A program made the translations under genes and the position numbers. Under the pieces are notes generated by a model. That model was not told the origin of the DNA, ran no database searches, and was given only the letters and a program-made list of their open reading frames with translations. This document shows positions 10,305 to 62,295 of a stretch of DNA of 64,000 nt, piece after piece. The stretch comes from Arctopsyche grandis (Eukaryota > Arthropoda > Insecta > Trichoptera > Hydropsychidae), in assembly GCF_051622035.1 (NCBI RefSeq), contig NC_135357.1, forward strand, positions 33,088,191-33,152,190, written 5' to 3'. Position 1 is the stretch's first letter. Each line of letters opens with the position of its first letter.

Positions 10305-11350
10305 GGAGACTTTAATTAATATTATGTATTTATTTATTTTTAATATACAAGTATACCGCAGTGTCTTTACAGGTCACCCCAATATGACACTGTGGCCAGT
10401 ATTAGATGTATTATGAGCATTTATAAGAATTGTAAATAGGTTTTTCAGCTCTTTTTCCTATTATTATGCTCAGTACATTAACATTAGAATAATATAATAC
10501 TATGATTACTGACAAAATTAAATTGAAATTGTATAATATAAAATGATCAGTAGATCAGTAGCTATCAAAATAGATATAAGATGTATCGTGAACATAATTT
10601 AGTAATAATAAAAAGCATTTGAAACTCAAAATAAAAAAATAAAATGATTTGAAGTATGTGTTGGAGACTTTAATTAATATTATGTATTTATTTATTTTTA
10701 ATATACAAGTATACCGCAGTGTCTTTACAGGTCACCCCAATATGACACTGTGGCCAGTATTAGATGTATTATGAGCATTTATAAGAATTGTAAATAGGTT
10801 TTTCAGCTCTTTTTCCTATTATTATGCTCAGTACATTAACATTAGAATAATATAATACTATGATTACTGACAAAATTAAATTGAAATTGTATAATATAAA
10901 ATGATCAGTAGATCAGTAGCTATCAAAATAGATATAAGATGTATCGTGAACATAATTTAGTAATAATAAAAAGCATTTGAAACTCAAAATAAAAAAATAA
11001 AATGATTTGAAGTATGTGTTGGAGACTTTAATTAATATTATGTATTTATTTATTTTTAATATACAAGTATACCGCAGTGTCTTTACAGGTCACCCCAATA
11101 TGACACTGTGGCCAGTATTAGATGTATTATGAGCATTTATAAGAATTGTAAATAGGTTTTTCAGCTCTTTTTCCTATTATTATGCTCAGTACATTAACAT
11201 TAGAATAATATAATACTATGATTACTGACAAAATTAAATTGAAATTGTATAATATAAAATGATCAGTAGATCAGTAGCTATTCAAATATGTAGATATAAG
11301 ATGTATTGTGAACATAATTTCGTAATAATAAAAAGCATTTAAAAATCAAA
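10305..11350 (+). repeat. tandem array of J LINE tail, 358-bp period, about 2.9 units
   Basis: GGAGACTTTAATTAATATTA recurs at 10305, 10663 and 11021. Each unit is a J LINE 3' tail into which about 70 bp ending in a D-type 3' hairpin was inserted on the minus strand. The units share private changes (GATGTATCGTGAAC, TTTCAGCTC), so insertion preceded amplification. The last unit ends near 11350 with tail sequence of the unamplified type. Confidence 0.88.
10356..10395 (-). other. D-type 3' hairpin (unit 1 of 3)
   Basis: Stem CCACAGTGTC / GACACTGCGG (9 of 10 pairs) around ATATTGGGGTGACCTGTAAA on the minus strand, followed by an A/T-rich tail. Identical copies lie at 10714-10753 and 11072-11111. 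Confidence 0.8.
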
Positions 11351-11849
11351 ACCCCCGATAGTATGTAGTAAACCGATCAAGGAAAGAGGAAAGCGTTCTT
11401 CACCCACCTGGTATTTGTGCGGATAACGTTCGTATGGAAACTTCGCCAGCAGGTAGTGTCTCCTAATCGGGAAGCGGACGATAGACAGCCCACTTTGAGA
11501 AGCACTGTCACTGTACGTGTGTTTGTATGTTTGTGTGTTGGCGCGTTTGTTTCGGTGTTTGGAGAGGCAATGGAGCGTGGTATGTCCGATGGTCTGCTTA
11601 TATGGGTCCTCCCCACGCTCGTGCCCCGCCGGTTGCCACACTCTGGCCTCTTCCAAATCGCACTCGTCAAATTGTTTGACGACAATGGTGACAACCGAAT
11701 GACAACAAGCTCATTACTTTTTTTCAAATGGAATACTCTATTTGAGAAAACGTCGAAAGCTCCGGTCGCCACGGGTGGTCTGAAGCTTGCTTTTGGCATG
11801 CAATATGCTAGATAGTGCTCAGAAGTAAGTGCTCTTAGATACGTGTATC
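11351..11849. other. GC-richer unique stretch; possible minus-strand promoter and first exon
   Basis: On the minus strand CCATATAAGCAGACC (TATAAG at 11602-11597) lies about 190 bp upstream of a strong donor-like ACCAG|GTGGGTG at 11408/11407. Overlapping frames of 105-140 codons exist on both strands without family resemblance. No exon can be assigned with confidence. Confidence 0.3.
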
Positions 11850-11975
11850 ATTTTTTTACTTTATCTATGTATGTACGTAGTGACAATAGATGAAGTTTTG
11901 CGAACATGCGAAAATTCGAACTCGATATTTTGAACTCAGGTTCGATCACTGATCACGTTTTCATGATCTAGAAAA

Positions 11976-12015
<40 letters not shown>

Positions 12016-13152
12016 TTTGGTGATTTTTTGAACACCGTTAGTCCTATCGAACTGAAACTTAGTATCGGTTACTGAAATTCTTATCGATACGACGTAATTT
12101 TTTTTTAAATTTTTAAGTTGACCGGAAATGGTACCTCCCCTTATATGTAGGTGTCGTTTTTTTTAAGTTTTTAAATTAAATTATCTCCCAAACCGCTAAC
12201 CGAATGAAACTGAAATTTTTACTTTATCTGTGTACGTAGTAACAATAGATGAAGTTTTGTGAACATTCGAAAATTCGAATTCGAGATTTTGACTGATTTT
12301 GAACTCGGAATCGATCACTGATCACGTTTTCATGATCTAGAAAAAAATGTGTGTGTGTGTGTGTGTGTGTGTGGCTGTGTATTTTTTGAACACCGTTAGT
12401 CCTATCGAACTGAAACTTAGTATCGGTTACTGAAATTCTTATCGATATTTTATTTTATTTATTGAAAAAATAAAACAGACAACAGGATGTAGATTGTATG
12501 TATAAAAAACAAATAGTAAATATATAATATATGTAACATCCGAGTCCAATAACAGATTTTTACAGATTATAAAAAAAATGAAAAAGATAAATATAAGGAA
12601 AAAAAATGAAAAAGAAAAGAATAAAGGCTATAACATGACAAAATAGAACATTGCATAATTAAACTATAGTATTAAAATATTGGAAAAAGGTTATAAAATA
12701 GAATATAAGAAGAAATTGAAATTTACAAATATAAAACAAATGAAAAAGGTAAATACAAAATAAACAAATGAAAAGGAAAAGAATGAAAGTTATAACATGA
12801 TTAAATAGCACATTACATAACTAAACTAAAGTATAAAAATATTGGAAAAAGGTTATAAAATAGAATAGGAGAAGAAATGAATCAATCGGCCAAGATATGA
12901 TATAAATATTTTTCAAATTTTTAAGTTGACCGGAAATGGTACCTCCCCTTATATGTAGGTGTCGTTTTTTTTAAGTTTTTGAATTCAATTATCTCCCAAA
13001 CCGCTAACTGAATCAAACCGAAATTTTTACTTTATCTATATACGTAGTAACAATAGATGAAGTTTTGTGAACATTCGAAAATTCGAATTCGATATTTTGA
13101 CTGCTTTTGAACTCGGAATCGATCACTGATCACGTTTTCATGATATAGAAAA

Positions 13153-13200
<48 letters not shown>

Positions 13201-13440
13201 CTGTGTATTTTGGTGATTTTTTGAACACCGTTTTGAAACTTCGTATCGGTTATAGAAATTCTTATCGATACGACGTAAATTTTTAAGTTGACCGGAAATG
13301 GTACCTCTCCTTATAGGTATCCTCTTTTTTTTAAGTTTTTGAATTCAATTATCTCCCAAACCGCTAACCGAATCAAACTGAAATTTTTACTTTATCTATG
13401 TACGCACATTACAATAGATGAAGTTTTGTGAACATTTTTG
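11850..13440 (+). repeat. tandem repeat array with a (GT)n tract in each unit, period about 360 bp
   Basis: Landmarks recur in order: GATCACTGATCACGTTTTC at 11943, 12313 and 13121; CTCCCAAACCGCTAAC near 12185, 12993 and 13353; GTTGACCGGAAATGGTACCT in each unit. Each unit carries its own GT microsatellite (11977-12013, 12349-12372, 13154-13199). The second unit is split by a LINE C 3' end (12447-12896). Confidence 0.85.
12447..12896 (-). mobile_element. LINE C 3' end inserted in the tandem array
   Basis: Matches the 3' UTR of the LINE at 23698-24513 (minus) nearly throughout, from just after the shared stop codon to the terminal ATTTTATT repeat. Only non-coding sequence remains. It interrupts array sequence at the ATCGATA site and so post-dates the array. 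Confidence 0.78.
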
Positions 13441-14429
13441 ATTTTTTAAATCACAACAATTTTTTTTCTTATTTTTCCAATTTAATGAAACTTTTCCTGA
13501 ACACTGTGGCCAGGATGATTCCGTATTTCTCAAAGAAGCGGAACGGAAGCTGAGGTGATTAATAAGAGAAGATGTGTGGAGCATAGTTTCGCTGAGCATA
13601 CGTCCATTATGTAAGAGGACAGTCCTTTAGAATTATTTATATTCTAAAATTGCCCTTTGTCCATTATTTTGTAAAATCGACTATATCTAAAAATATTAAC
13701 TGAGATCACTAAAGTAATTACTGGAGTGGAGATTTATCAGTATTTACTAAATTTGACCCGCTAAATTCGAATATGACAATGGTTTTTGTTGGTTTCTTTT
13801 TTTTTATAAAAAAATGTGCAATATTACAGGTTTTTGGCGTTTACAGTCTTTGGAATCAATACTCAGATGTTGGAATCAATACTCGGATGTTTCTCCTATT
13901 GATTGTGACTTTTCAATGCTTTAAATATCTTAATATTTTTTTTATCTAAACGTACTAATTAATTCAGTGGAAAATGTCTTTTAAATTTCAATAATGTGTA
14001 ATAAACATGATTGTTTAAATTTAAAAATTTTTAAATCATTAAGTATAAAACAATTCTTTATATGCACTTCATTTTTTCCTAAAAAATTTGGTCATCGTAA
14101 GCATAGTGGATGAAGATCGTGTAAGATGGACAGGAAATGATGATCTCAGGTTCATTTCAACAGTGAATATACAAAGAAAGTATTTTTAAACAGTACCGAA
14201 GAGATTTTAGATGAAAGTAAGGATCTTTTTAAAAATAAATTTTATCAAACAGAATGCACGATGAATGCTGATATCGATCGGCTTTGCTGGGTTGAAGAAA
14301 TGGATTTACAAAAAAAATCAAACATTTAGGAGATTGTATTGTAAATGAAAGTTGTGCTTGCAGGTAAAAATTCAAAAGAATTGTGGTTCATGATAAAATA
14401 TGAATGTACACACTATGATAATGTTGATT
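13441..14429. other. no gene recognised
   Basis: AT-rich. A stretch at 14100-14340 looks weakly coding (VDEDRVRWTGNDDLRF in one frame) but has stops and no family match; it could be transposon debris. Confidence 0.35.
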
Positions 14430-14456
14430 TATTTATTTATATATTTATTTATATTA

Positions 14457-14498
14457 GTCACAGTGACATTACAGAATACCCTAACGCGTCGCTGTGAC
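14457..14498 (-). other. C-type 3' hairpin with (AAAT)n tail
   Basis: Minus-strand stem GTCACAGCGAC / GTCACTGTGAC (10 of 11 pairs) around GCGTTAGGGTATTCTGTAAT, followed by AAATAAAT repeats (14456-14430). It is likely the 3' end of the minus-strand SINE at 14886-15201, split from it by the Helitron-type element. Confidence 0.75.
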
Positions 14499-14544
14499 CA
14501 AACATATTAGCATAAAACATATGTAATATCTAATTTGGAAAAAG

Positions 14545-14882
14545 ACTTATCGAACAAATAATTCGATTTTTTTGCGATTCAAAGGATTCGAATTCCTCGG
14601 GGGCAAAGTCGCCGAGGGCAAAGCCGCATTCGCACCGGGGGCGAAGCCCTAGGGGGCGCCAGATTCTGGTATACATATAATTTCGAAAGACACTTACCAT
14701 ATATGTATGTTTGTTTGTTCGTGACTGTCAATTTAATAAAAAAAAAAAACAAATGAGTATTCAAATAAATTTATATAAAATAAAACTATTCAAATAAATT
14801 TAATAAAATGTTAACTATTAGATTTGTCATGTTTAAGCGGTTTATATTACAAATACCGAACGAAGCCGAGTAATACAGCTAG
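14545..14882 (+). mobile_element. Helitron-type element, copy 3, with GC-rich internal repeat
   Basis: Shares with 19155-19580 the opening ATCGAACAAATAATTCG, then a GC-rich segment (GGGGGCGAAGCCCTAGGGGG type), then TTTCGAAAGACACTTACC, and ends CTAG before T at 14883. The 3' hairpin is CCGAACGAAGCCGAG, slightly decayed. Confidence 0.65.
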
Positions 14883-14885
14883 TAC

Positions 14886-15201
14886 TATACATACATAAGA
14901 AAATTAGCGAGACATCTATGTTATAGATAATAAACTTTTGAAATCATATTCAAATAGTGGTGACATAGTGGGTAGGATGGTTTTAGCCAATTTGATGGAG
15001 GAACCGCTTCAACAATGAAATCAGATAAATTGGCAAACTCTAATGGAAAATGAATGTCTTGGAGCACAAATATCGAAGTCTGACCAGCAGCATAAAAGAT
15101 AATACTCAGAATAAATTTTTTTCAGAGTGAATAAGCTCACGGTATCGAACCCGGCGGCCTCTTGGTGCTTAGTACCAACGCAACTACCGATCCACGCTGC
15201 T
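14886..15201 (-). mobile_element. tRNA-derived SINE, minus strand
   Basis: Head with box B (GGGTTCGATACC on the minus strand), the conserved central domain (TTCATTGTTGAAGCGG type) and a tail start with TAGATGTCTCG. Its 3' part may continue beyond the Helitron-type element to the C-type hairpin at 14498-14457. Confidence 0.75.
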
Positions 15202-19884: not shown

Positions 19885-20267
19885 TATACACCAGAAAGGC
19901 CTGACAGGTAAACCCCAATGCGCCTTCCAGCCAATTACAAACATTGCAGTATTTTTTAGTACATAAATCGCTGAATTTTGAGATGCTGAAGAACACGCAA
20001 TTAAATATTAATTAATTAATGAATTAATCCATAGAGACATCTATGAAATTAGGCTTGTACATATATTTTTACACATTTTACATAAATCAAATTCAGATAT
20101 TTGTGACATAATGGGTAGGGTGGTTTTTGCCAATTTGATGGAGGAACCGTTTAAACAATGAAATCAAATATCCAATTCTACAAATATCCAAGTCACAAAT
20201 ATCCAAGTCTAATTATCCCGGGATCGAACCCGATAGCCTCTCGGTGCTTAGCATAGATGCCTCTATG
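19885..20267 (-). mobile_element. tRNA-derived SINE with B-type hairpin, head truncated
   Basis: On the minus strand: box B GGGTTCGATCCC, central domain, TAGATGTCTC tail and a decayed B hairpin at 19930-19891 (core GCATTGGGGTTTACCTGTCA). The head start is missing at the junction with a plus-strand SINE tail at 20268. Confidence 0.78.
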
Positions 20268-20457
20268 ATTATTATTTCTGATTAATTGTTATATGCTATA
20301 TATTCTGATTGTATATGTATTACTGTATTTCTGATTTCTGATTGTTTATGTATTCTGTATTTCGTTAACGTACACCCGTCGCATTGGAGCAAATCTGTAA
20401 TGACGAGTGTATATTGATTTGTAACAATAAAAAATAAAAATAAAAATAAAATAAACG
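20268..20457 (+). mobile_element. SINE 3' end with E-type hairpin
   Basis: Closely matches the end of the SINE at 48065-48598. The hairpin at 20372-20410 has stem ACACCCGTC / GACGAGTGT (8 of 9 pairs) around GCATTGGAGCAAATCTGTAAT. Followed by AATAAAAATAAAAATAAAAT. Confidence 0.78.
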
Positions 20458-21756: not shown

Positions 21757-22490
21757 TATGTTATTTTTATTCCAATCACACTTTGTATTCATTCATCATA
21801 CATTCATACTTCATCACAAATCAAACGCTTTTTTGTGGGGTATAATATCCTCAATATATCCAATATTTAATCGCCATAGTTCTTTATCAACTCAAAATAA
21901 AATAAAATTATATCGCGCGCTCATATTACCATTATTAACCTATGCTTCACCTGTATGGAATAACGCCTCGAATACTAATCTTTCCAAGCTCCAAATAATA
22001 CAAAATAAATCCCTAAAAATAATTTATAATACACCCATATATATTAACTTGAAAAAACTACATGCCATATATAATATTCCGTTTGTTACAGACATTACTA
22101 ACAAACTAACCAGTAGATTCTATGACAGAATCACTAATAACCATACTAACACACTTGTGAAGAGTCTCGGTGATTACAACAAAATGTCTTTACCCTTCAG
22201 GTATAAACACAGATTACCTAAACACAATCTGCTTTAGGTCATCGACTTTAGAGAGTCTTTAATTAATATTATGTATTAGATGTATTATGAACATTTATAA
22301 GGATTGTAAATAGGTTTTATAGCTCTTTTTCCTATTATGATGTAGATTAATATTAGAATAATATAATACTATGATTACTAAACGAATTAAATTAAATTGT
22401 AAAATAGAAAATGATCAGTAGATCAGTAGCTATTAAAATAGATACAAGATGTATTGTGAACATAATTTCGTAATAATAAAAAGCATTGGG
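21757..22490 (+). mobile_element. Jockey-like LINE (J family), 5'-truncated copy with coding end and full tail
   Basis: The coding end at about 21836-22237 is followed by the J 3' UTR and GTAATAATAAAAAGCATT. It is the reference copy tying the many isolated J tails in this window to a reverse transcriptase. Confidence 0.85.
21758..22237 (+). pseudogene. reverse transcriptase C-terminal fragment (Jockey-like)
   Basis: The last ~125 residues are typical of the region after the RT palm in Jockey-type LINEs: IYPIFNRHSSLS, then LYRALILPLLTYASPVW, then LQIIQNKSLKIIYNTP, ending PKHNLL at the stop. The palm with its catalytic aspartates and the endonuclease are missing. Upstream residues do not align in this frame but a better match lies in another frame, pointing to a frameshift near 21835. 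Confidence 0.8.
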
Positions 22491-23004: not shown

Positions 23005-23652
23005 GGTGTCACGACAAACGTCTACGGACAAAAGGGCGAACGACTCAACGTCCCCGACAAAATCACAATGCGACATACTGTCTACGGACAAAATGTTTAG
23101 GCGACTTATGATAATATCTCAACTTGATAATAACCTTTCCAATTCTATAACTTATTTTAAATTTTAAAATTGGTTTATTTACTTTTGTTTTGCCTTACAA
23201 TTTTAAATTGTTTATCATGTTCTTTCTTTTTTTTTATCATTCATTTTCCTATTTGTGTATTATTTTCTATTTTATGTGAATTTTTTGCTGTTTATATATT
23301 TGGTCACGGCGTCATTTTGGACAACTTTAAAGACGTTGTGGCATAAAATTCTCTTAAAATAAAATAAAACCTACGGATAAAACGATAACGTGACATAATA
23401 TGACATTCATATGTATGTTCAAAAACGAATTTTTAACGAAAAAAACGTACATGAATTCTATAAAAAGTGTGACGACGAAGATCTATACACATCTTTTGAC
23501 ATATTGATGAATAAGTCGCGCTATCATTTTGTCGTAGACATTATCATAAGTCGCGTAAACATTTTGACTGCAGACATTGTGTCGCGCTATTATTTTGACG
23601 GGGACTTTGTGTCGTTCGCCGTTTTGTCCGTAGACGTTTTGTCGTCGAACCA
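23005..23652. mobile_element. 648-bp foldback element with long inverted arms and 8-bp target duplication
   Basis: Arms of about 110 bp (23005-23115 and 23540-23652) are inverted copies carrying ACGTCTACGGACAAAA and further GACAAAATGTCTACG-like repeats. CTTATTTG flanks both sides (22997-23004, 23653-23660). No transposase frame. The duplication length fits hAT, P or some MULE elements; the superfamily is not settled. Confidence 0.85.
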
Positions 23653-27830: not shown

Positions 27831-28524
27831 TTGGTTTGTTTTCAATACAAAATTAAGAAAATACGTTGCGTGTTAAAAAAATTAATTGAATCCATCCTTT
27901 CACAAAATAAACACCAATTTCATAATTGATATGCGGACATATTGTAATTGATTCATCAAATTTTAATCACCCTTTCATAACCGTCTTTTATTACCATACA
28001 CACCATTTTTATGGAGATTCAATCTTTGATTATAATTCAATCAAATAACCCGCCATTAAAAAGAAGCGCTAACTACGATTTGTGTTTTGAATTTAGAAAT
28101 TTTGAATTATATAGGTACATAAAGCTATGTATATTTCTCTGGGCTAAAATATATTACACCTTTAACAGAACATATGTTACATCAATAGTTTTGCAAATGC
28201 ATAGGATTATTGGGCCTCTATCACATTACCTTATTTCCCATTTAATCCTAGCTAATTTTAGTCCCAAGATGACTAATAAGTTTTACATATGTATAATATG
28301 TAAATAGACTCCTTTAAATCTTGAAAAGGTATTAAATATTTATGCAGGAAGTTATGATTTATTTATATGACATAAATTAAGTACACGGCTTCACCCGGAT
28401 TAAGGCGAAAACACACTGAAAGGAACGGCACGACACGTCATCGTGGCTTCCAATCAAGGAAAGACGTTTCCAGTTCATTGTTCAAAGGATCTTAAGTTTC
28501 TTCTACCTTGCTTCAAATATCGGA
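27831..28524. other. no recognised feature
   Basis: AT-rich. A 98-codon plus-strand frame (28011-28307) has no recognisable domain. TACACGGCTTCACCCGG near 28391 may be a decayed Helitron-type end. Confidence 0.35.
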
Positions 28525-29609
28525 TTCACAGCTATCGATTATTATTTTCTCCACGTCTTCTTAAACTCTTTGCTTCTTATCTTAGTGATAGGAAGCAATT
28601 TGTTAGATATGGTATTTATGAATCTCCTTCATTTTTTACGCGATCTGGTGTAACTCAGGGGTCCACCTTAGGCCCTTTACTATTTACAATAGTCATTAAT
28701 AACCTCCCTAAAGTACTACGCAATGCTTCATGTCTCTTGTTTGCAGACGACGTTAGACTATTCTTTGCTGTTAAGGATGAGAGGCAAGCCTCTCTCCTTC
28801 AAGCTGATATTAACGCTGTTTTAGAGTTCAGTTCCAGTTTAGGGCTTGAACTGAATACTAGTAAATGTGCCATTATGAGTTATGGACGTGTGAATTCGCT
28901 CTATTGTCACGGATATTCCATTGGATCCGTATTGTTGAAGCGCGTGGAATCAATGGTCGACTTGGGTATCACTTTTGATCCTCAATTCACCTTTCACAAC
29001 CACATCAAGACAATCGCTGACGCTTCCTTTCGTCGACTTGGATTTGTCTTGAGATATGCTAGATTATTCTCCAACCCCTTGTCTTCTCGCTTGCTTTTCA
29101 ACTCGCTTGTTAGAAGTAAGCTAGAGTACAATGCAATTGTGTGGAATCCGCATGAAGCAAACTACTCTCTTATTATCGAAAAAGTGCAAAAAGCATTTCT
29201 TCGTTTTCTTTATAAGAAAGAGTATGGGTACTACCCATATCTCTATCCTACTCCTTTCCTTTTGGGCATGCTTGGGTATAATTCCCTTGAAATTCGGAGA
29301 AACTTCTCGTTAATTCGTTTCGTTCTCCAGCTATTGCGTGGTAATACGTCATGCCCGTTGTTGCTGGAACAGTTGGGCCTTTATGTCCCTAATAATTATG
29401 TGCGTGGTAGACATCATCATTTGATGGTTGTACCTGCTGCTCGCACAGTTCTTTTTCGAATGGCTCCTATTCCAAGAGCTATTCGACTTCTCAATGAAAT
29501 CGTTGCTGCTGTCCCTGAATGTGATATTTTCCACCTTGGGGAGCGTAGATTATCGAATATTATCTTAACATATTTATCTGGTAACCTGCGCTCATCATTA
29601 CTTTCTTAA
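28443..29609 (+). CDS. LINE A reverse transcriptase, partial (388 codons open)
   Basis: Lacks the endonuclease and the N-terminal part of RT. The LINE-like part begins near SPRLLKLFASYLSDRKQFV. The palm holds SGVTQGSTLGPLLFTIVINN and the catalytic FADD (CLLFADDVRLF); the thumb region follows with VDLGITFDPQFTFHNHI, and the C-terminus ends LTYLSGNLRSSLLS. No RNase H domain. This is Jockey/CR1-group organisation. The ATG at 28443 lies in flanking DNA, so the frame is open by truncation and not a true gene start. Whether any RNA is made is unknown. Confidence 0.85.
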   Translation: MASNQGKTFPVHCSKDLKFLLPCFKYRIHSYRLLFSPRLLKLFASYLSDRKQFVRYGIYESPSFFTRSGVTQGSTLGPLLFTIVINNLPKVLRNASCLLFADDVRLFFAVKDERQASLLQADINAVLEFSSSLGLELNTSKCAIMSYGRVNSLYCHGYSIGSVLLKRVESMVDLGITFDPQFTFHNHIKTIADASFRRLGFVLRYARLFSNPLSSRLLFNSLVRSKLEYNAIVWNPHEANYSLIIEKVQKAFLRFLYKKEYGYYPYLYPTPFLLGMLGYNSLEIRRNFSLIRFVLQLLRGNTSCPLLLEQLGLYVPNNYVRGRHHHLMVVPAARTVLFRMAPIPRAIRLLNEIVAAVPECDIFHLGERRLSNIILTYLSGNLRSSLLS

Positions 29610-30021
29610 TTTGAATGTGATGAATGAGTGGAATCTTAATCTACTCTCTTCCATTTGGGCCTCGCTGTGATTTTATTTTATTTTATTTTACTTTTTCTTT
29701 CTCCTTTGTATATTTTTATATACTATTTTAATTTTGTTCAGTGTAAACAAAGAATGGGATTTATGGATTTTATTTTTAATTTTTCACTTTTGTTATTTTT
29801 TTTTTCTCTCTGAATGATGTATTATTTTCCTTTTGTTACTTTTTTTTATTATTTTATTTTACCATGTTTTCTGCTTTTGCTTTTTTCCTTTATTTACAGT
29901 TTACTTGTTTTTATATCATGTTTTTATATATTTTTCAAATGTAGGCCATTGTGGCGCATTAGGTTCTTCCTGTAATGCCACAATGGTCCAAAACTATTAA
30001 ATAAATAAATAAATAAATAAA
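28525..30021 (+). mobile_element. LINE A, copy 1: 5'-truncated, open coding end, complete 3' UTR and hairpin
   Basis: Reverse-transcriptase coding sequence to 29609, a T-rich 3' UTR, the A-type hairpin at 29945-29988 and an (AAAT)n tail. Over 98% identical by eye to copy 2 (37377-38384) across the shared coding part, so both inserted recently. Confidence 0.9.
29945..29988 (+). other. A-type 3' hairpin of LINE A copy 1
   Basis: Stem GCCATTGTGGC / GCCACAATGGT (10 pairs plus one G-U) around GCATTAGGTTCTTCCTGTAAT, followed by AAATAAATAAATAAAT. Confidence 0.88.
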
Positions 30022-30086
30022 TTATCAAGCCAATGTCAATACAATGATAAAATATAGCCGAAAACACTCCAGGGGGTGATTTTTAG

Positions 30087-35929: not shown

Positions 35930-36364
35930 TAGATATTTACCAGGAAGGCTTGACAGGAAGACCCCAAAGCGCCTTCCTGGACAATGAATTACAAACAATG
36001 CAGCATTTTATTATTACATAAATCACTGTATTTCCAGAAGCTAAAGAACACGAAATAACAATTAATTAATTATTTAATTACAGAAATAATCCATGGAGAC
36101 ATTTGTGGATTTAGATTTTGTACATAATTTTTAAAAATTATACACACAACAAATACAGAAGATTTGTGACAATAGGAAAGATGATTTTTTGCCAATTTTG
36201 AGGAACCGTTTCAACAATGATCAGATAAAATTGGCAAACTCTGATAAGAAACGATCGATTTGGAGTCACAAATACCCCCAAATCCAACCAGCAGTATGGC
36301 GGATCGAACCCACTGATCACTTGGTGCTAGACATACACGCTACCATTAAGCCATACTGCTGGCT
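35930..36364 (-). mobile_element. tRNA-derived SINE with B-type hairpin
   Basis: Minus strand: head CCAGCAGTATGGCTTAATGG with A and B boxes (GGGTTCGATCC), central domain, and a perfect 10-bp hairpin at 35980-35940 (CCAGGAAGGC / GCCTTCCTGG, core GCTTTGGGGTCTTCCTGTCA). Followed by AAATAAAATAAAT. Confidence 0.82.
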
Positions 36365-37376
36365 AAATGACTAAATGACTTACCAATATTGTATTTGTCC
36401 TTTTTTACATAATCGATACATCGAAATCGGTCATAATAACCCGCTCTTCCGTAAGATCACTTTTGCAATTCCTTAAGCAATAATAATAATATTACATCGT
36501 CGTAAAATCATCATTAATTATGTACATATGTATGCGAGGAACGTTCATACTTATCGACAATAATACAGTAATAATGTTGTAATGTTGTTTTATTGTTTTT
36601 GTTTTGCATTCTTGATATTTTTCTTTTCAATCACTTATGTACATTCAAAATCTAAAGATAAAGCAAAGTGTGATTGTGATCTTTCGCCTTTTATAACCGT
36701 TTGTGGAATTTTGCCACAACGTACCCACGTTTTTGGTCTTGAAGGCAATTCACATAGTGGAAAAACGCGTACGTTTTGCGCATAGTGTTAAATCGAAGTG
36801 ACAGTTTAAACACAAAAACGCTAAATTGCAAAAACTACGACGACGGTTGAATTTCGGACGAGGGGTATACCTAATCGCGTGCAAACAATGGATGCTGCGA
36901 AACTCACTTGGAATAAATTCGCATCAGATTGGGCAAATCGATATATTTTATTCTGTCTTTGCCAATTGAGGTCACGCCAAATAAAAAAGGTTTGAATTTG
37001 TTGAGTTTTTCAACTGGAATACTATCGGACTGATAAATTCGACTATGTCAAAATATCTATTCTGAAGACACTGCTGTAACTTAACATTAGATACCGGATC
37101 CACAGCGTGCCGTCCACTGTTTAATTGTTGTAAATGTTTTGTTAAATGTTCGCCGTTATTAATGTGCGCGCGCAGAATACGGGAGGAAAAGCCTGTTCCT
37201 CTTGTTCCTGTTGTATCCTGCTCGCGCAAATTAAGTGAGTATGTACCGTTTACCATGCACCCTTTTTTTTTGATCTTTCAACTTAAGATCTTTTTATTTT
37301 CGATCTTTGCCTTCTGATATTTGCGTTTTCCGGCATTTCACATTCCGGCCCGTCATGGAGACCGTATTAATACATA
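36365..37376. other. no assigned gene; possible small secreted-peptide frame and a hAT-MITE-like piece
   Basis: 36582-36785 encodes 67 residues starting MLFYCFCFAFLIFFFSITYV, a signal-peptide-like start followed by a short Cys-containing segment; no family match. 37093-37155 resembles the terminal region of the MITE at 49287 (CAGCGTGC, TTTAATTGTTGTAAATG). Confidence 0.35.
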
Positions 37377-38031
37377 TGTCGACTTGGGTATCACTTTTGA
37401 TCCTCAATTCACCTTTCACAACCACATCAAGACAGTCGCTGACGTTTCCTTTCGTCGACTTGGATTTGTCTTGAGATATGCTAGATTATTCTCCAACCCC
37501 TTGTCTTCTCGCTTGCTTTTCAACTCGCTTGTTAGAAGTAAGCTAGAGTACAATGCAATTGTGTGGAATCCGCATGAAGCAAACTACTCTCTTATTATCG
37601 AAAAAGTGCAAAAAGCATTTCTTCGTTTTCTTTATAAGAAAGAGTATGGGCACTACCCATATCTCTATCCTACTCCTTTCCTTTTGGGCATGCTTGGGTA
37701 TAATTCCCTTGAACTTCGGAGAAACTTCTCGTTAATTCGCTTCGTTCTCCAGCTATTGCGTGGTAATACGTCATGCCCGTTGTTGCTGGAACAGTTGGGA
37801 CTTTATGTCCCTAATAATTATGTGCGTGGTAGACATCATCATTTGATGGTTGCACCTGCTGCTCGCACAGTTCTTTTTCGAATGGCTCCTATTCCAAGAG
37901 CTATTCGACTTCTCAATGAAATCGTTGCTGCTGTCCCTGAATGTGATAATTTCCACCTTGGAGAGCGTAGATTATCGGATATTATTTTAACATATTTATC
38001 TGGTAACCTGCGCTCATCATTACATTCTTAA
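37375..38031 (+). pseudogene. LINE A RT C-terminal fragment
   Basis: About 218 residues of the region after the palm, starting VDLGITFDPQFTFHNHIKTV and ending LTYLSGNLRSSLHS. The FADD palm is lost by truncation, so no enzyme activity is expected. The upstream ATG at 37321 lies in flanking sequence. Confidence 0.85.
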
Positions 38032-38384
38032 TTTGAATGTGATGTATGAGTGGAATCTTAATCTACTCTCTTCCATTTCGGCCTCGCTGTGATTTTATTT
38101 TTTATACTATTTTAATTTTGTTCAGTGTAAGCAAGGAATGGATTTTATTTTTGATTTTTACACTTTTGTTATTTTTTTTGTCTCTGAATGATGTATTATT
38201 TTCCTTTTCTTACTTTTTTTTTGTTATTATTTTATTTTACCATGTTTTATGCTTTTGCTTTTTTCCTTTATTTACAGTTTACTTGTTTTTATATCATGTT
38301 TTTATATCTTTTTCAAATGTAGGCTATTGTGGCGCATTAGGTTCTTCCTGTAATGCCACAATGATCCAAAACTATTAAATAAAT
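37377..38384 (+). mobile_element. LINE A, copy 2, 5'-truncated
   Basis: Begins at GTCGACTTGGGTATCACTTT, equivalent to position 28962 of copy 1, and keeps an open frame to 38031. The 3' UTR carries a deletion relative to copy 1. The hairpin at 38322-38367 has mismatches in its outer stem. Confidence 0.88.
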
Positions 38385-39861: not shown

Positions 39862-40289
39862 ATACCAGGAAGGCATTACAGGTAAACCTCAATGCGCCTT
39901 CCTGGCCAATTACAAACAATACACCATTTTTTATTGTCGCTAAATTACGAGACACTGACTTAAACTCGATAATTAACGAGACATCTATGAATTGTACATA
40001 CATTTTATTGTAATATTTACATTAATCATACTCAAATAGTGGTGACATAGTGGGTAGGAAGGATTTTTAGCCAAATTTTTAATCGGGAACCGTTTCAACA
40101 ATGAAATCAGAGAAAATTGGCAAACTCTGATAGGAAACGATCGACCAGGAGTCACAAATCCTGGTCTGACCAGCAGCATTGCAGATATACTCAGAAAAAA
40201 TCTTTTCAATCGAGGTCAGCTCAAGGGATCGAACCCGGCGCCTCTCAGTGTTAAGCAGAAGCTTAACGACCGAGCCACGCTGCTGGCTG
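39862..40289 (-). mobile_element. tRNA-derived SINE with B-type hairpin
   Basis: Minus strand: head GCGTGGCTCGGTCGTTAAGC, box B GGGTTCGATCCC, central domain, TAGATGTCTCGTTAA and a perfect hairpin at 39905-39865 (core GCATTGAGGTTTACCTGTAAT). Close relative of the SINE at 61830. Confidence 0.85.
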
Positions 40290-40290: not shown

Positions 40291-40676
40291 TTATTTATTT
40301 ATTTATTTAATAGTTTTGGACCATTGTGGCATTACAGGAAGAACCTAATGCGCCACAATGGCCTACATTTGAAAAATATATAAAAACATGATATAAAAAC
40401 AAGTAAACTGTAAATAAAGGAAAAAAGCAAAAGCAGAAAACATGATAAAATAAAATAATAAAAAAAGTAACAAAAGGAAAATAATACATCAATCAGAGAG
40501 AAAAAAAAAATAACAAAAGTGTAAAAATTAAAAATAAAATCCATAAATCCCATTCTTTGTTTACACTGAACAAAATTAAAATAGTATATAAAAATATACA
40601 AAGGAGAAAGAAAAAGTAAAATAAAATAAAATAAAATCACAGCGAGGCCCAAATGGAAGAGAGTAGATTAAGATTA
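40291..40676 (-). mobile_element. LINE A, copy 3: 3' UTR only
   Basis: Inverted near-identical copy of 29630-30010, including the hairpin at 40362-40320 and an (AAAT)n tail at 40310-40291. The SINE at 39862-40289 follows immediately downstream on the same strand. Confidence 0.85.
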
Positions 40677-44510: not shown

Positions 44511-45108
44511 GTTACACCGAATCCATGAAATTGTTAAATATGAACAAGCATTCGGCAAGAGAATTGCCGAATGCGTGAAAAATGCAAGCACGTTGCTCAG
44601 TTCACGGATTCCGTAAATTCTTTGCCGAATGCGTGAACTGGACAGCGTGTTATATTAAAACCAAGTGTCAAAGTGACAGCTGAATAAGGATGTTTAATTT
44701 ACATATTATTATGTATAATATGACTACATACAAATGTTTCACTGTTAAAATATTGATCAAAATGTATAAATATGGCATTAATTTATGTATAAGTCATATG
44801 AGATGATCGAAACATATGTATGTATTCATATTATACATAATAATTTGTAAATTAAACTAAATTAAACATCCTCATTCCGCTGTCACTTTGACACTTGTCC
44901 ACGCTGTCCAGTTCTAAAAAGCAACACCGGAGCGCTGCTGTCTATTTGCCGACTCCATGCTTTGAGCAGACAAATTCTTGCCGAATACACGCATTCGCCA
45001 AAGAATTTACGGAATCCGTGAACTGGGCAACATGCTTGCATTTTTCACGCATTCGGCAATTCTCTTGCCAAATGCGTGTAATAGACAATTTCACGGATTC
45101 GGTATAAC
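44511..45108. mobile_element. 598-bp palindromic foldback element
   Basis: Starts GTTACACCGAATCC and ends GGATTCGGTATAAC. Arms of over 200 bp (44511-44723, 44836-45108) are inverted copies, and within the arms ATTCGGCAA and its complement form nested hairpins. The right arm has about 60 bp absent from the left. Flanks are TA-rich so the target duplication is ambiguous. No coding sequence. Confidence 0.87.
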
Positions 45109-45344: not shown

Positions 45345-45690
45345 TTTCAGAGTATGCTGTTGGTCAGACCTGGATTTGTGCTCCAGGTTGATCGTTTCCT
45401 ATCAGAGTTTGCCAATTTTCTCTGATTTCATTGTTGAAACGGTTCCCGGAAAAAAAATTGGCTAAAAATCCTTCCTACCTACTATGTCACCACTATTTGA
45501 AATTTGATGGATGTACAATAAAAATGTATGTACAATTCATAGATGTCTCGTTAATTTGCGAGTTTTTTCAGTGTCTCGCAATTCAACGACTTATAATAAA
45601 AAAATGCTGCATTTGTATTTGTAATTGGCCAGGAAGGCGCATTGGGATTTTCCTGTAAGGCCTTCCTGGTATATATGTAAAATAAAAAAT
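45345..45690 (+). mobile_element. SINE with B-type hairpin, head truncated
   Basis: Starts in the central region (ATGCTGTTGGTCAGACCTGG), keeps TTCATTGTTGAAACGGTTCC and the tail, and ends with a perfect hairpin at 45629-45669 (core GCATTGGGATTTTCCTGTAAG). Confidence 0.82.
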
Positions 45691-48064: not shown

Positions 48065-48598
48065 ATATAGCCAGCAGTTTGGCTTAGTGGTAGCGTATAT
48101 ATTTAGCACCACTGAGATCAAAGGTTCGAGTCCTCGCCCCTGCTGGTTAGATTTGGGGGTTTTGTGACTCCAAATCGATCGTTTCTCTATCAGAATTTGC
48201 CAATTTTATCTGATCATTGCTGAAACAGTTCCTGAAAATTGGTATTAGATCTAATCCTGTTGTCACAAAATCTGCCTGTGTATAATTTGTAATAATTAAA
48301 CACAGTAATCTGAAATCTATAGACATCTCTATAATTTCATATTTATTATATGTATAAAAATTGTATACAAAAAAAAAATCTAAAAATAATCCATAGATGT
48401 CTCTATGATTATCATTTCTGATTAATTGTTATATGCTATATATTCTGATTGTATATGTATGTATAACTGTATTTCTGATTTCTGATTGTTTATGTATTCT
48501 GTATTTCGTTAACGTAAACCCGTCGCATTGGAGCAAATCTGTAATCGCGAGTGTATATTGATTTGTAACAATAAAAATAAAAATAAATAGAATAAAAA
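48065..48598 (+). mobile_element. tRNA-derived SINE with E-type tail, near full length
   Basis: Head with good box A (TGGCTTAGTGGTAGCG) and box B (GGTTCGAGTCC), the shared central domain (TTTGTGACTCCAAATCGATC), and an E-type tail with GTCGCATTGGAGCAAATCTG at about 48521. Ends AATAAAAATAAAAATAAAT. Confidence 0.85.
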
Positions 48599-49911: not shown

Positions 49912-50150
49912 CATATTTATTGAAACTGGCTGTAGGTGCAAGGCATTCCTTATGCTATATTTTATTTTATATTTTTACTTTATCTGTTATTATTAAATGC
50001 TATTTTTTATGTTTATGTATGAATGTATTTATGTTTATGTTTAATTGTTATTTTGTTTTTTTTCTTTTTTGTGTTATATTTTTTGACCATTGTGGCGCTT
50101 TAGGAATTCCTGTTATGCCACAATGGTCTGTTTAAAATAAATAAATAAAT
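49912..50150 (+). mobile_element. LINE B 3' tail with perfect A-type hairpin
   Basis: GTAGGTGCAAGGCATTCCTT 3' UTR, then a 12-bp perfect stem (50085-50096 with 50117-50128; core GCTTTAGGAATTCCTGTTAT) and AAATAAATAAAT. Confidence 0.82.
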
Positions 50151-57616: not shown

Positions 57617-57890
57617 AAATGCTTTAGGTCATCGACTTTAGAGAGTCTTTAATTAATATTATGTATTACATGTATTATGAGCATTTATAAGGATTGTAAA
57701 TAGGTTTTTGAGCTCTTTTTCTTATTATGCTGTAGATTAACACTAGAATAATATAATACTATGATTACTAACCAAATTAAATTAAATTGTAAAATAGAAA
57801 ATGATCAGTAGATCAGTAGCTATTAAAATAGATATAAGATGTATTGTGAACATAATTTCGTAATAATAAAAAGCATTTAAAAATCAAATT
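57617..57890 (+). mobile_element. J LINE 3' tail
   Basis: Begins GCTTTAGGTCATCGACTTTA, upstream of the gene start and on the opposite strand; ends GTAATAATAAAAAGCATTT. Confidence 0.78.
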
Positions 57891-59147
57891 GATTAGAACT
57901 TGTGCTTGACGAAACTCGTTGTTTCATGTTTTAGGAAGATAATACACATGTTGAATTTGAATTTTAGAATTATCAGGAAAGGATATTGATTATAATATCA
58001 CAGGGAAAATTTTGTATCGAAATAAATGTGAACTACATATATTGATTGTATTACTAATTGGTCAATTAATTCACAAAACATCATAAAAAAAGGCTTTTTT
58101 TTGTACAATTGTCTTGATGAAAGTCTCACGGTCTAATATTATAAGTTCAAAGATTTTACATATGTATATATGGAAGTATATCAATCCTTACTTTATATTG
58201 AAATGATATCGTCCTGCTTTTATACTTGCCTCATTCGAGCAATGAAGTAATACTAATTTTACCGTTGAGTAGCAAATGCCATAATAGTTGTAACATAATT
58301 GTTAATTTGGTACATTTAATTGGGTCGTCTACGATTTTACGACATATTTCTAAGATAAGATAAAATTTTGACTATGTATGCATCTTTGAAAACAATTAGG
58401 TAATAAAGTTTTGCCGCTATAATATATTATGTCCATTATTATGACAACAAAACAAATACATACATATGTGCGTAATTGGATGACCTTATAACGTTTTACT
58501 TTATACGATAATATGACCAAAAGCCAAAAAAACTGGATAAACTATAAATATACTAAATACATACATATATTAGTAAAAATACGAAAACAAAGATAACATT
58601 CTAAGATGAACTAATTATTTATATGTACATATGTCTGATACCGCATTTTGTTTACATACAACAAATACTTTAAATTTAATAGTATATAATATACTACATG
58701 TATCCGGTGCCACTTATTATTAACGAAATATTTGATATTAGATTTAAATAAAAGAGCCGTGTAAAAATAGCAAATACATATGTGTTACATTAAAAAATAC
58801 CTTCACATTATTATTGTATAAGAATCTAATAATTTATTTATTTTTTTAATTTGTAATGATATCACTATTTTTATTCACTGTATTTATTGATTTAATTTTG
58901 TTTTGATTATGTTACTTCTACTATTATATAAATTAACTAAGAAGGTGTGCGCACACGCTGTTTGCTAAAACGTTACTGATCGGAACGATTCAATGCATGA
59001 AAGATCGGTCCAGAGTCGCTGAAGCTCAGTGGCGTCTCGTGTTATCTGAGCAATTTAATTTTTAAATTTAATTTAACATTTCCGAATGTTTCATTTTTTT
59101 AAATGTTGAAAACACATCACACAAGTTCCATACTTTTAACACAATTC
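57891..59147. other. no recognised feature
   Basis: AT-rich intergenic sequence with short frames only. Confidence 0.35.
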
Positions 59148-59160
59148 ATACAACTTTATA

Positions 59161-59361
59161 ATTGTAAATAGGTTTTTCAGCTCTTTTTCCTATTATGCTG
59201 TACATTAACATTAGAATAATATAATACTATGATTACTAACAAAATTAAATTAAAATTGTAAAATCGAAAATGATCAGTAGAGCAGTAGCTATTAAAATAG
59301 ATATAAGATATATTGTGAACATAATATAGTAATAATAAAAAGCATTTAAAAATCAAAATCA
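59161..59361 (+). mobile_element. J LINE tail insertion with 13-bp target duplication
   Basis: Only about 200 bp of 3' UTR (starting ATTGTAAATAGGTTTTTCAG), flanked by ATACAACTTTATA at 59148-59160 and 59362-59374. Shows target-primed insertion of a severely truncated copy. Confidence 0.9.
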
Positions 59362-59446
59362 ATACAACTTTATAAACCAATTTGCCAAATTGCTTTATAG
59401 TAAAATATAAATAGACCTACACTATGTATTTAAATATGTAGGTACA

Positions 59447-59799
59447 GGTTTTTCATTCCAAATTGACCCTTTCTCTTATCAAATTGACCCGTTTTAAATG
59501 TCAATTTTAAGAATTGTAAATAGGTTTTTGAGCTCTTTTTCCTATTATGCTGTACATTTACATTAGAATAATGTAATACTATGATTACTAACCAAATAAA
59601 ATTAAATTGTAAAATAGAAAATGATCAGTAGATCAGTAGCTATTAAAATAGATATAAGATGTATTGTGAAAATAATTTCGTAATAATAAAAAGCATTTAA
59701 AAATCAAAATCCAATGTCAATTTGAAATTAAAAATGATTAATTTGAAATGAAAAACAGTCAATTTGAAATGAATAAGGGTCAATTTGGATTGAAAAACC
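59447..59799. mobile_element. small inverted-repeat element split by a J LINE tail
   Basis: GGTTTTTCATTCCAAATTGA at the left and an inverted partner (CAATTTGGATTGAAAAACC) at the right, with AATTTGAAATGA repeats inside. Interrupted by the J insertion at 59508-59712. No clear target duplication for the outer element. Confidence 0.7.
59508..59712 (+). mobile_element. J LINE tail insertion with 11-bp target duplication
   Basis: Starts TAAGAATTGTAAATAGG, ends AAAAATCAAAATCC region; AATGTCAATTT flanks at 59497-59507 and 59713-59723. Its 5' break is within about 5 nt of that of the copy at 59161. Confidence 0.9.
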
Positions 59800-60060
59800 T
59801 ATACAAGAAAAGAGAGGTATTCTAAAAATATATTTTGATGAATAGAATGTTGAATTTAAGTTTTATTAAATTTTATGTGGACTAAAGATTGACGCATATC
59901 GAAAAATGAATCTTTACAAGCACAATAACATGAAAAATTCTGTACTAACTTTGATAATTTGAATAAAAAATGATTATCTAATCAAAAATAATCTGATACA
60001 AATGGTATGCTGTGCGGAGCTGATCTCTCTTACAAGCTACATAGCAATATTCACAATCTC

Positions 60061-60235
60061 CTACTATAAAAGATAAATGTTTGTTTGTCCATACATTTGC
60101 CTGTCATGTAAATACATATACAGTTTTCAATTTAGAACCATCACAATCAGTATACTATGTAATGATACTAAAATTTGGAATGTAGACTTTTTTTTTCACC
60201 TGCCCGAGCGACGCCAGGCAATTCAGCCAGTTGAA
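60061..60235 (+). mobile_element. short Helitron-like fragment
   Basis: AAAGATAAATGTTTGTTTGTCC start and a GCCCGAGCGACGCCAGGCAA 3'-type end followed by CAGCCAGT in place of CTAGT. Decayed. Confidence 0.45.
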
Positions 60236-61188
60236 CACAAATGGAACAGGACCATTGCCTCGTTTCCCAATATTTTTCAATATGGTATTTATATATTTTA
60301 ATACTTATTCCGGCCCTTCACTGAATGAGATCGACACAAATCGTTTATATCAATCAAACACATAAACATTTTTCTAAACGAAGTGAATATAAACTGCATA
60401 TCAATCTATGGCACATGTTTGATTTTCCGTTTCCTTTATTTGTATACCTTTGCTATTTTTGACAATTAACAAAAAACACATTATAATAAATATTTTTGTC
60501 GATTTCAATGAATAATAAAACTACAATGCATATCTCATTTATATATCACGTATCTGACACACGAATCAAACGAACGTTTGATCGATGGATTTTGTATACT
60601 ATGATTGTGCAATATATATGTTTGTTTAGTTTATTATGCCGCTATCTTTATTAGCGACAGTATATGTATATCTCACATAGATATGAAACATTTCTTGGTT
60701 GTTTGATTGAAATTTAAATTCCAACCGTTGGACCACTGGGCGTTCTGATGCAGGTTGCACATTTGTTCGATGGCCGCGAATTTTATCCAATTATCCGAAC
60801 TTGGCAATGACGATTATCTCATTAACCGGACGACAGACCGTTTGCTAGCCGGACATTGGGAGCAAAAATTGACTGTCAGGGTAACTCGATTGCAACGTCA
60901 TAACGGTCACGTTTGCTTAGTATGTATGTTGCACCGGAAAATGCAATGGGTTTTCCGCAAACGCGACCCTCAAAACAAACCAGTCATAACATATGGACAA
61001 AAGAGATATACTCGAATGGTATCAAAAGAGCTTAAGAAGAAGTCAAGAAGACTACAAGTGCAATATAAGGAAAATATGTGAGGTCAAATGGATGAATGTC
61101 GAAGAAGAATCGCATTGAATTTGATGTTAGTTTTCAAACTTGTGTATTTTCAATTAAATCTGGTACTATTATGAGTACTTCGATAAAA
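60236..61188. other. no assigned gene
   Basis: A 108-codon plus frame (60755-61081) rich in Lys/Arg at its C-terminal end (SKELKKKSRRLQVQ) has no recognised family and no upstream or downstream exon signals that could be tied to it. Confidence 0.35.
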
Positions 61189-61830
61189 TAATAAGATGGG
61201 CATCTCACATTGAGGGAGCGAAATGCAAGGCGATGCGGGGTATATCCTCAATATATCCAATATTTAATCACCATAGTTCTTTATCAACTCAAAATAAAAT
61301 AAAATTATATAGCGCGCTCATATTACCATTATTAACCTATGCTTCACCTGTATGGAATAACGCCTCAAATATTATACTAACCTTTACTATGTAGCTCCAA
61401 GTAATACAAAATAAATCCCTAAAAATAATTTATAATACACCCATATATACTAACTTGAAAAAACTACATGCCATATATAATATTCCGTTTGTTACAGACA
61501 TTACTAACAAACTAACCAGTAGATTATATGACAGAATTACTAATAACCATACTAACACACTTGTGAAGAGTCTCGGTGATTACAACAAAATGTCTATACC
61601 CTTCAGGTATAACACACAGATTACCTGAACACAATCTGCTTTAGGTCATCGACTTTAGAAAGTCTTTAATTAATATTATGTATTAGATGTATTATGAGCA
61701 TTTATAAGGATTGTAAATAGGATTTTAAGCTCTTTTTCCTATTACGCTGTACATATTAACATTATAATAATATAATACTATGATTACTAACAAAATTAAT
61801 TTAAAATTGTAACATAGAAAATGATCAATT
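61189..61830 (+). mobile_element. J LINE, 5'-truncated copy split by a SINE
   Basis: Coding end with in-frame KCKAMRGISSIYPIFNHHSS, then an insertion-disrupted stretch with a stop near 61393, then LHAIYNIPFVTDITNKLTS and the 3' UTR. The tail resumes at 62296 after the SINE and ends near 62370. The coding part is a pseudogene. Confidence 0.85.
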
Positions 61831-62295
61831 AGCCAGCAGCGTGGCTCGGTCGTTAAGCTTCTGCTTAACACTGAGAGGCGCCGAGTTCGATCCCTTGAGC
61901 TGACCTCGATTGAAAAGAATTTTTCTGAGTATATCTGTAATGCTGCTGGTCAGACCAGGATTTGTGACTCCTGGTTGATCGTTTCCTATCAGAGTTTGCC
62001 AATTTTCTCTGATTTCATTGTTGAAACGATTCCCGATTAAAAATTGGCTAAAAATCCTTCCTACCCACTATGTCACCACTATTTGAGTATGATTAATGTA
62101 AATATTACAATAAAAATGTATGTACAATTCATAGATGTCTCGTTAAATTGTCGAGTTTAAGTCAGTGTCTCGTAATTTAGCGACTTATGTATATAATAAA
62201 AAATGCTGTATTGTTTGTAATTTGGCCAGGAAGGCGCATTGGGGTTTACCTGTAATGCCTTCCTGGTATGAAATAAAATAAAATAAATAAAATAA
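61830..62295 (+). mobile_element. tRNA-derived SINE with B-type hairpin, apparently full length
   Basis: Head AGCCAGCAGCGTGGCTCGGT with box B GAGTTCGATCCC, central domain TTTGTGACTCCTGGTTGATC, then TAGATGTCTCG, a perfect 10-bp hairpin at 62226-62266 (core GCATTGGGGTTTACCTGTAAT), ending in AAATAAAATAAATAAAAT. Target duplication ATCAAT at 61824-61829 and 62296-62301 inside the J LINE tail. The best reference copy in the window. Confidence 0.92.

Follow-up and report, generated by a model that had tools for sequence, protein, structure and literature searches.

Related hairpins at the 3' ends of several LINE and SINE families in Arctopsyche grandis pair through outer stems that differ between families

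In Arctopsyche grandis a hairpin of one kind, placed before an A-rich tail, ends the elements of five LINE families or subfamilies and of three SINE families with tRNA-like heads. This confirms what a preliminary description of a 64-kb stretch of the genome (hereafter the window) had proposed, namely a 3' architecture shared by LINEs and SINEs in several variants. An outer stem of about 10-12 bp encloses a conserved asymmetric core, which in most families reads GCATTRGG-loop-CCTGTAAT; a short linker and the A-rich repeat tail come after the hairpin. The letters of the outer stem differ, and the stem has been kept by compensatory change. We consider it very probable, from the sequences, that the hairpin serves related "stringent" LINEs as a 3'-terminal recognition structure and was borrowed by these SINEs; its role would most likely be that of a template handle for target-primed reverse transcription.

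All 15 hairpins that had been listed for the window are there, each at its listed position (Table 1). They stem from 13 independent insertions, since the three hairpins beginning at 10356, which had been taken for separate element ends, are one hairpin-plus-tail insert in tandem triplicate, and their reading as three insertions is rejected. Beyond these, we found three further hairpins at 23.3, 48.5 and 62.85 kb, two of them decayed, as well as SINE ends in a decayed state around 2.09 kb and 16.79 kb.

Table 1. Hairpins and associated element parts, in window positions.
Feature	Position	Strand	Basis
LINE A RT frame, C-terminal part, 401 aa	28404..29609	+	Pfam RVT_1 E 4.8e-15; protein relatives
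LINE A 3' hairpin, stem CCATTGTGGC/GCCACAATGG	29946..29986	+	folding and model; (AAAT)n tail next
LINE A 3' hairpin, second copy	38324..38364	+	RT piece at 37318-38031
LINE A 3' hairpin, third copy	40321..40361	-	model score
LINE B 3' hairpin, outer stem as LINE A, 4-nt loop	35769..35808	+	model score; genomic LINE B-type ends
LINE B-type 3' hairpin	50087..50126	+	model score
SINE S, complete: tRNA-like head, central domain, 3' hairpin, tail	61830..62295	+	target-site duplication
SINE S hairpin, stem CCAGGAAGGC/GCCTTCCTGG	62226..62266	+	folding and model score
SINE S hairpin	39865..39905	-	model score
SINE S hairpin	45629..45669	+	model score
SINE S-like hairpin	35940..35980	-	model score
SINE S-like hairpin, partly decayed	19891..19931	-	model score; 17/200 shuffles equal
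SINE E2 hairpin	14458..14497	-	genomic copies GGTCACAGTGAC/GTCACTGTGGC; stem also given as TCACAGTGAC
LINE D hairpin in 5'-truncated hairpin+tail insert	10356..10395	-	genomic copies CCACAGTGTC/GACACTGTGG
Tandem duplicate of 10356 insert, 358-bp unit	10714..10753	-	repeat unit and model score
Tandem duplicate of 10356 insert	11072..11111	-	repeat unit and model score
SINE E4 hairpin, stem TACACCCGTC/GACGAGTGTA, one mismatch	20371..20411	+	folding, model; related genomic copies
SINE E4 hairpin, decayed	48515..48555	+	25.2 bits, E 7e-5, outside training set; 41/200 shuffles equal
LINE E hairpin	23304..23341	+	E 0.18, non-significant alone; supported only by relatives
LINE C 3' hairpin, decayed copy	62840..62876	-	RT remnant at 63018-63955 (-)

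The listed hairpins score 45.9-61.5 bits with a covariance model, by construction, as 13 of the 15 scored sequences also built it. A held-out model, trained on the stems of LINE A, LINE B and SINE S only, recovers 14458 at 27.0 bits (E 3e-5) and 10356 at 22.6 bits (E 6e-4), the latter a modest score because the antisense strands of the training hairpins also reach about 23 bits; 20371 scores weakly (12.3 bits, E 0.5), and its matches do not include 23304. By folding energy, no more than 4 of 200 shuffled sequences do better than the hairpin in ten of the 12 cases folded, and the hairpins at 19891 and 48515, whose counts are in Table 1, are not special. Rfam, which includes the UnaL2 family, gives no match at the gathering score in the window; around 62130-62310 and 29900-30030 its matches lie far below the gathering scores, and none is a LINE element. 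A search of PDB by sequence returned nothing. In viral contigs, the RT alignment led to no confirmed relative and the pattern of the SINE central domain had no match.

The genome of 475.7 Mb has 3,798 exact copies of the core and none of its reversed pattern. At least eight of the ten outer pairs form at 52 of 55 fetched core sites (34 of 35 from one sample and 18 of 20 from a sample picked for variant cores), and at 40 of 43 when the count is repeated with shorter flanks and near-identical sites merged. The corresponding figure is 1 of 134 for apparent chance matches to the core pattern in collections of genome contigs and viral contigs. The core had been placed at element 3' ends, and there it is found: an A/T simple-repeat tail lies within 60 nt of 72 of the 74 core matches in fetched loci, some of which overlap, as against 147 of 1,580 random stretches. 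The asymmetric core has a single orientation with respect to tail and RT.

The elements bear the marks of LINE-type insertion, with reverse transcriptase, 5' truncation and, in two inserts, target-site duplication. Truncated inserts keep hairpin and tail. Target-site duplications are present in two window inserts with known uninterrupted sites; the insert at 10356 is flanked by AATAC, and the complete SINE S by ATCAAT (61824-61829 and 62296-62301), with its uninterrupted target site seen in three other copies of the host repeat. Among nine SINE S copies tested no clear target-site duplication appeared.

The expectation that changed outer stems still pair was borne out by tests against permutation and tree-based nulls, which are not R-scape itself. 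The distinct stems number six; 59 of their 60 outer cells are paired, and eight of ten positions are altered on both sides. In 2,000 runs each, neither null attained the observed share of paired cells, the pair types or the covariation count; doubly changed positions were as numerous in 32 of the 2,000 permutation runs and in 2 of the 2,000 tree runs, the tree null being home-made with a tree built from the hairpins themselves. As there are only six stems, few independent events stand behind the covariation. SINE E4 and LINE E entered this analysis as consensus strings, every other row being a single copy. The decayed copy at 48515 was omitted from alignment A3, and neither the window's LINE C copy nor the decayed SINE ends around 2.09 kb and 16.79 kb were used.

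Inside the stem the pairing is ambiguous. ATT had been said to be able to pair with AAT in every hairpin, but the fold of lowest energy is a different one from this inner helix, in which pairs 13-31 and 15-29 fail in four and three, respectively, of 12 distinct window sequences; of the inner bulges described, the one on the 3' side reads TG, not GT. Two inner folds are candidates, ATTR/YAAT with two bulges and URGG/CCUG with an internal loop.

LINEs with long open frames carry the hairpin: 18 of 103 scored genome copies of LINE A have a 989-aa frame. In LINE A loci picked by RT, the hairpin is present in 30 of 30, with ten of ten pairs and 353-380 nt past the RT-end marker. The named top protein relatives of this RT are lepidopteran, and a lepidopteran RT used as query returns LINE A copies (68 scored). 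For LINE C, 20 of 150 RT matches were fetched: 14 have the hairpin (intact genomic stem AGCACACTCGTC/GACGAGTGTGCT), two more have it with a looser pattern, and four lack it even so. The loci of LINE D, SINE E2 and SINE E4 were picked by hairpin-containing DNA, so that its presence follows from selection. With this reservation, the LINE D stem is found in ten of ten genomic copies, whose 5' ends are, by eye, cut at various points, and one copy (L225) includes the end of an RT-related frame. The 3' end of LINE E has 34 other genome matches; the consensus of 18 fetched ones has the LINE D stem, and we have withdrawn the 23.3-kb stem as a further distinct one. RT-related sequence lies upstream in 2 of 18 LINE E stretches, 1 of 10 LINE D stretches and 4 of 20 mostly LINE B-type ones. 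These stretches are short, and only a few copies therefore identify E and D as LINEs. In another locus, L178, RVT_1 (E 1.2e-27) is the sole Pfam domain of an 832-aa frame cut at its start.

In the SINE heads, A-box-like TGGCTCGGTCGTTAAG and B-box-like GGGTTCGATCC were recognized by eye; ARAGORN reports no tRNA in the window. The body of the SINE E2 at 14458 extends, across an interrupting repeat, as far as about 15.2 kb, and the arms are identical in eight of ten genomic copies and changed in two. SINE E4 has the hairpin in 12 of 12 genomic copies, with its fixed stem mismatch kept in all of them, and the SINE that ends in the decayed hairpin at 48515 runs from about 48068. The idea that SINEs match LINEs in their stems holds for one of the three families. 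The 3' ends of LINE C and SINE E4 have 80 identities in 110 columns (z 12.6), are each other's best match, and have in common the stem, the core and the linker beyond the hairpin. A LINE with the SINE S stem was not found in a partner search that gave 568 matches, of which one stretch was read, nor one with the SINE E2 stem among the LINE copies fetched. SINE S differs from its nearest LINE (A) in four letters of the 5' arm, and SINE E2 from its nearest (D) in two, with pairing kept in both cases.

Could these hairpins be inverted repeats of separate origin whose likeness is accidental, or DNA palindromes such as those of MITEs? A palindrome also gives a score on its antisense strand, as happens here. 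Yet reversed cores are wholly missing beside thousands of forward ones, the core is asymmetric with a single orientation towards tail and RT, inserts are 5'-truncated and the stems covary, all of which makes this explanation scarcely credible. It is also improbable, if less extremely so, that the stem-loop has been conserved because the RNA needs it for 3'-end formation, export or stability, with no part in recognition by the LINE enzyme. A hairpin at the transcript end beside an A-rich tail would suit such a function, and a host RNA-binding protein could equally tolerate free stem letters around a conserved loop. However, the hairpin is common to LINEs and to SINEs with tRNA-like heads, which are presumably Pol III transcripts, so that their RNA ends would be differently made; what the two have in common is the copying machinery. 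The likeness of LINE C and SINE E4 in stem, core and linker also extends beyond the hairpin itself, and in zebrafish a LINE protein binds a hairpin of this type belonging to its own element (PMC4176376).

A more serious possibility, to which we would give an even chance, is modular exchange of tails: SINEs would have taken ready-made tails of different LINE lineages by template switching, their stem differences would have come to them as whole units, and compensation would have occurred in LINE lineages only. SINEs with a common central domain bear three different stems, SINE E4 matches LINE C past the hairpin, and 3'-tail exchange has been invoked for lepidopteran SINEs (PMC8010984, main text). 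Against this, SINE S and SINE E2 so far have no LINE with the same stem, and the few letters that separate them from LINE A and LINE D leave pairing intact. Tail exchange is compatible with recognition of the hairpin by a LINE enzyme, and would mean fewer independent compensatory events.

If the hairpin is such a recognition structure, the LINE protein would bind it, reading the stem by shape and the core by letters, and would set the tail on nicked target DNA, where reverse transcription would start. Stem letters would be free to drift while pairing holds, so that each lineage would now have its own stem. A zebrafish L2 element likewise needs its own loop and accepts a foreign paired stem (PMC4176376). 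Because LINE lineages differ in stem (CCATTGTGGC, CACACTCGTC, CCACAGTGTC) over a similar core, and because SINE E4 nearly carries the LINE C stem, the outer stem might also act as a family badge, each SINE having the same stem as the LINE by which it is mobilized. We regard this as unlikely; were it true, stem letters would divide the SINEs among co-resident LINEs, the reverse of the loop-specific zebrafish case as presented there. In either event, this one genome supplies a natural stem-swap library, with six stems on a similar core and copies in the thousands, and the long-frame copies of LINE A make the model of stem as shape and loop as sequence testable outside L2 elements. The system also illustrates a way in which insect SINEs may keep step with LINE tails, in a group where many SINE partners are unidentified (PMC8010984, main text). 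Among the papers listed by literature searches that did not extend to Repbase, none evidently reports this hairpin in insects.

Among known systems, UnaL2 of eel and ZfL2-1 and ZfL2-2 of zebrafish have a 3' stem-loop common to LINE and SINE, as here (PMC4176376, in part); they belong to the L2 clade, and the likeness to the Arctopsyche elements is one of descriptions. Maize and sorghum have L1-clade LINEs and SINEs whose 3' hairpin joins a conserved loop to a stem that varies in its letters and shows compensatory changes (Ohshima 2012, recounted in PMC3747384, section 4.3), the same pattern in a plant lineage, whereas here several families with distinct stems reside in one animal genome. Lepidopteran SINEs (HaSE1/2, PxSE1-3 and the pair PxSE5/PxLINE1) resemble ours, by description, in tRNA-like head, conserved central domain, LINE-like 3' end and tail exchange (PMC3272025 and PMC8010984, each in part), and neither "stem-loop" nor "hairpin" occurs in the main text of PMC8010984. 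CR1B of Maculinea and Bombyx is a lepidopteran LINE with endonuclease and RT domains, a 53-bp 3' UTR and a poly(A) tail, for which the words hairpin and stem do not appear in the available part of PMC1925062. Judged from its sequence, the putative recognition hairpin of Arctopsyche is a rich new addition to the known stringent-type 3' stem-loops.

Every place listed in the preliminary description carries a hairpin. Read in element sense, the usual order is an outer arm of 10-12 nt, GC, ATTR, GG, a loop of 4-5 nt, CC, TG, TAAT and the second outer arm, followed in most copies by a short linker and then an A-rich repeat tail. A pattern search of the genome (475.7 Mb, 189 contigs; the window is G000:C3:33088191-33152190) returned 1,904 + 1,894 matches to the exact core, GCATTRGG-N3-6-CCTGTAATG, and none to the core pattern read backwards. 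At least 8 of the 10 outer pairs are formed in 34 of 35 distinct core sites from the first fetched loci (30 have 10/10) and in 18 of 20 further sites, which were picked for variant cores; with near-identical sites merged more strictly, the counts are 25/26 and 15/17. The same level was reached by 1 of 134 chance cores (3-8-nt gap) from prokaryotic and viral contigs. As originally proposed, the core sits at element 3' ends: 72 of 74 matches have an A/T simple-repeat tail no more than 60 nt past the core; among random stretches from the same loci, 147 of 1,580 have such a repeat. Of the 12 window hairpins folded, 10 stand out in energy, with no more than 4 of their 200 shuffles doing better; those at 19891 and 48515 are not exceptional against 200 shuffles.

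The outer stems do covary, with 8 of 10 outer pairs changed on both sides in a window alignment of 12 distinct sequences. No shuffle out of 500 came up to the alignment in paired-cell share, in doubly changed pairs or in covariation score; 5/500 did so in number of pair types, and the signal was lost when partners were slid by 1-3 columns. At the family level, each distinct stem (LINEs A, C and D; SINEs S, E2 and E4) was represented by a single sequence, and 59 of 60 outer cells are paired, with 17 additional pair types. Paired share, pair types and covarying comparisons were each matched in 0/2,000 permutations and 0/2,000 tree-based simulations, and doubly changed pairs in 32/2,000 and 2/2,000, respectively, figures that describe six stems only and a simulation tree built from those hairpins themselves. 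The steadiest outer pairs are columns 10-32 (C-G throughout) and 8-34 (G-C, one G-U), the first and third out from the inner loop. A held-out covariance model built on LINE A/B and SINE S stems recovered SINE E2 (E 3e-5) and LINE D (E 6e-4) and missed SINE E4 (E 0.5) and LINE E; it scores the antisense of its own training hairpins about as it does LINE D.

In the inner part, columns 14, 26, 27, 28 and 30 are invariant among nine family rows, 15 and 29 almost so, and the LINE protein may read these letters. Two inner folds compete, and with so little variation in these columns neither of them is proven. Energy folding mostly prefers URGG/CCUG with an internal loop over the ATT/AAT helix of the preliminary description. 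The ATT/AAT helix is favoured by pair 13-31, where A-U gives way to U-A in LINE E and to G-U in SINE E2; against it, the same pair reads A-A in LINE D and has no partner in LINE C, where 15-29 is U-U, and in the window 13-31 is broken in 4 and 15-29 in 3 of the 12 sequences. The apical loops of LINE C (locus L209) and LINE E can be read as GCAA, a GNRA-type tetraloop; those of LINE A, B, D, SINE S and SINE E2 are not GCAA.

Nearest named relatives of the RT frame at 28404-29609 are lepidopteran, e.g. Melitaea cinxia (48% identity) and Plutella xylostella (52%), which points to an insect as the probable host. The LINE A RT has 103 scored genome matches, which are 96-100% identical to it; an open frame of 989 aa is present in 18 of them, and all 30 fetched copies have a perfect outer stem 353-380 nt past the marker at the RT-frame end. 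LINE B-type ends have the outer stem of LINE A and different loops; in 4 of 20 such stretches a frame shares 69-90% identity with LINE A. The LINE C RT remnant in the window, in three pieces, is 31-40% identical to LINE A, and its stem, AGCACACTCGTC/GACGAGTGTGCT, is very unlike LINE A's; among 20 fetched copies, drawn chiefly from the top of a list of 150 matches, 14 have it, two more do by a looser pattern, and four showed no hairpin by either pattern. The LINE D stem, CCACAGTGTC/GACACTGTGG, is present in 10/10 fetched copies, which were picked by matching that very hairpin; their 5' starts vary, as expected from target-primed reverse transcription, and at locus L225 the frame end is related to LINE A. 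LINE E (23304), with 70-92% identity between matches, is an old family; a consensus built from 18 relatives together with the window copy carries the LINE D stem, and RT-related sequence occurs in 2 of 18 stretches. LINE C copies sharing one internal TAG cluster at G000:C2 30.8-34.4 Mb, as do, at G000:C2 0.9-2.6 Mb, SINE S-stem sites whose matched letters are the same; both are possibly single insertions spread by segmental duplication.

SINE S, E2 and E4 have tRNA-like heads and one common central domain, yet different hairpin stems. Arms equal the consensus in 8/10 SINE E2 and 11/12 SINE E4 copies, all obtained via hairpin-region matches. Differing tRNA-like heads accompany one SINE central domain at 1.7, 16.4, 48.1, 51.2 and 61.9 kb of the window, among others, and heads, central domain and tails look interchangeable. 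The suggested LINE/SINE pair with a common 3' end was found: among 15 pairs of six ends (one copy each, up to ~110 nt), LINE C and SINE E4 rank top (80/110 columns, z 12.6), and their likeness extends past the hairpin into the linker. Nearest to SINE S is LINE A (z 10.3; 4 differing 5'-arm letters) and to SINE E2, LINE D (z 10.0; 2 letters). A partial search found no LINE with the exact SINE S or SINE E2 stem.

Insertions and neighbouring repeats (window positions unless a contig is given)
Feature	Position	Composition or setting	Insertion evidence
SINE S	61830-62295	inside a repeat	flanked by ATCAAT; uninterrupted site in the repeat's other copies
LINE D insert	10356	hairpin and tail alone	duplication AATAC
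Tandem 358-bp unit	10040-11351	piece of another repeat plus hairpin insert	
Shorter insert (L235)	G000:C10:23878290-23879000	within a SINE E2 copy, near the 3' third; a LINE D-like hairpin reduced to its 3' half, then linker and tail, nothing more	
Another repeat	21845-22487, 61242-61827 and elsewhere	target of two insertions studied	
Inverted repeat	44544-45079	101-nt arms, 91% complementary, 334 nt apart	

The tandem repetition made three hairpins out of one insertion. The shorter insert suggests that reverse transcription halted within the hairpin. Nine other SINE S copies show no clear target-site duplication. At the ends of the repeat that received two insertions the hairpin model scores nothing; by eye, this repeat has what we take to be a Jockey-like C-terminal frame. 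The inverted repeat is a possible DNA transposon remnant.

A hairpin so placed at element ends, conserved, covarying, shared by LINEs and SINEs and kept in 5'-truncated inserts would, on a mechanism modelled on zebrafish L2 (PMC4176376), be bound by the LINE protein, with reverse transcription beginning in the tail and SINEs mimicking the LINE stem-loop. In zebrafish L2, according to that paper, the loop is specific, a foreign stem works if paired, and an unpaired stem fails. The literature searched, Repbase being outside that search, yielded no report of the present hairpin; the group of elements, the sequence of their core and how many different stems coexist seem to be new. This kind of structure is itself already known, since for a plant L1 lineage PMC3747384 describes LINEs and SINEs which, like the elements studied here, combine a conserved loop with a variable, compensating stem.
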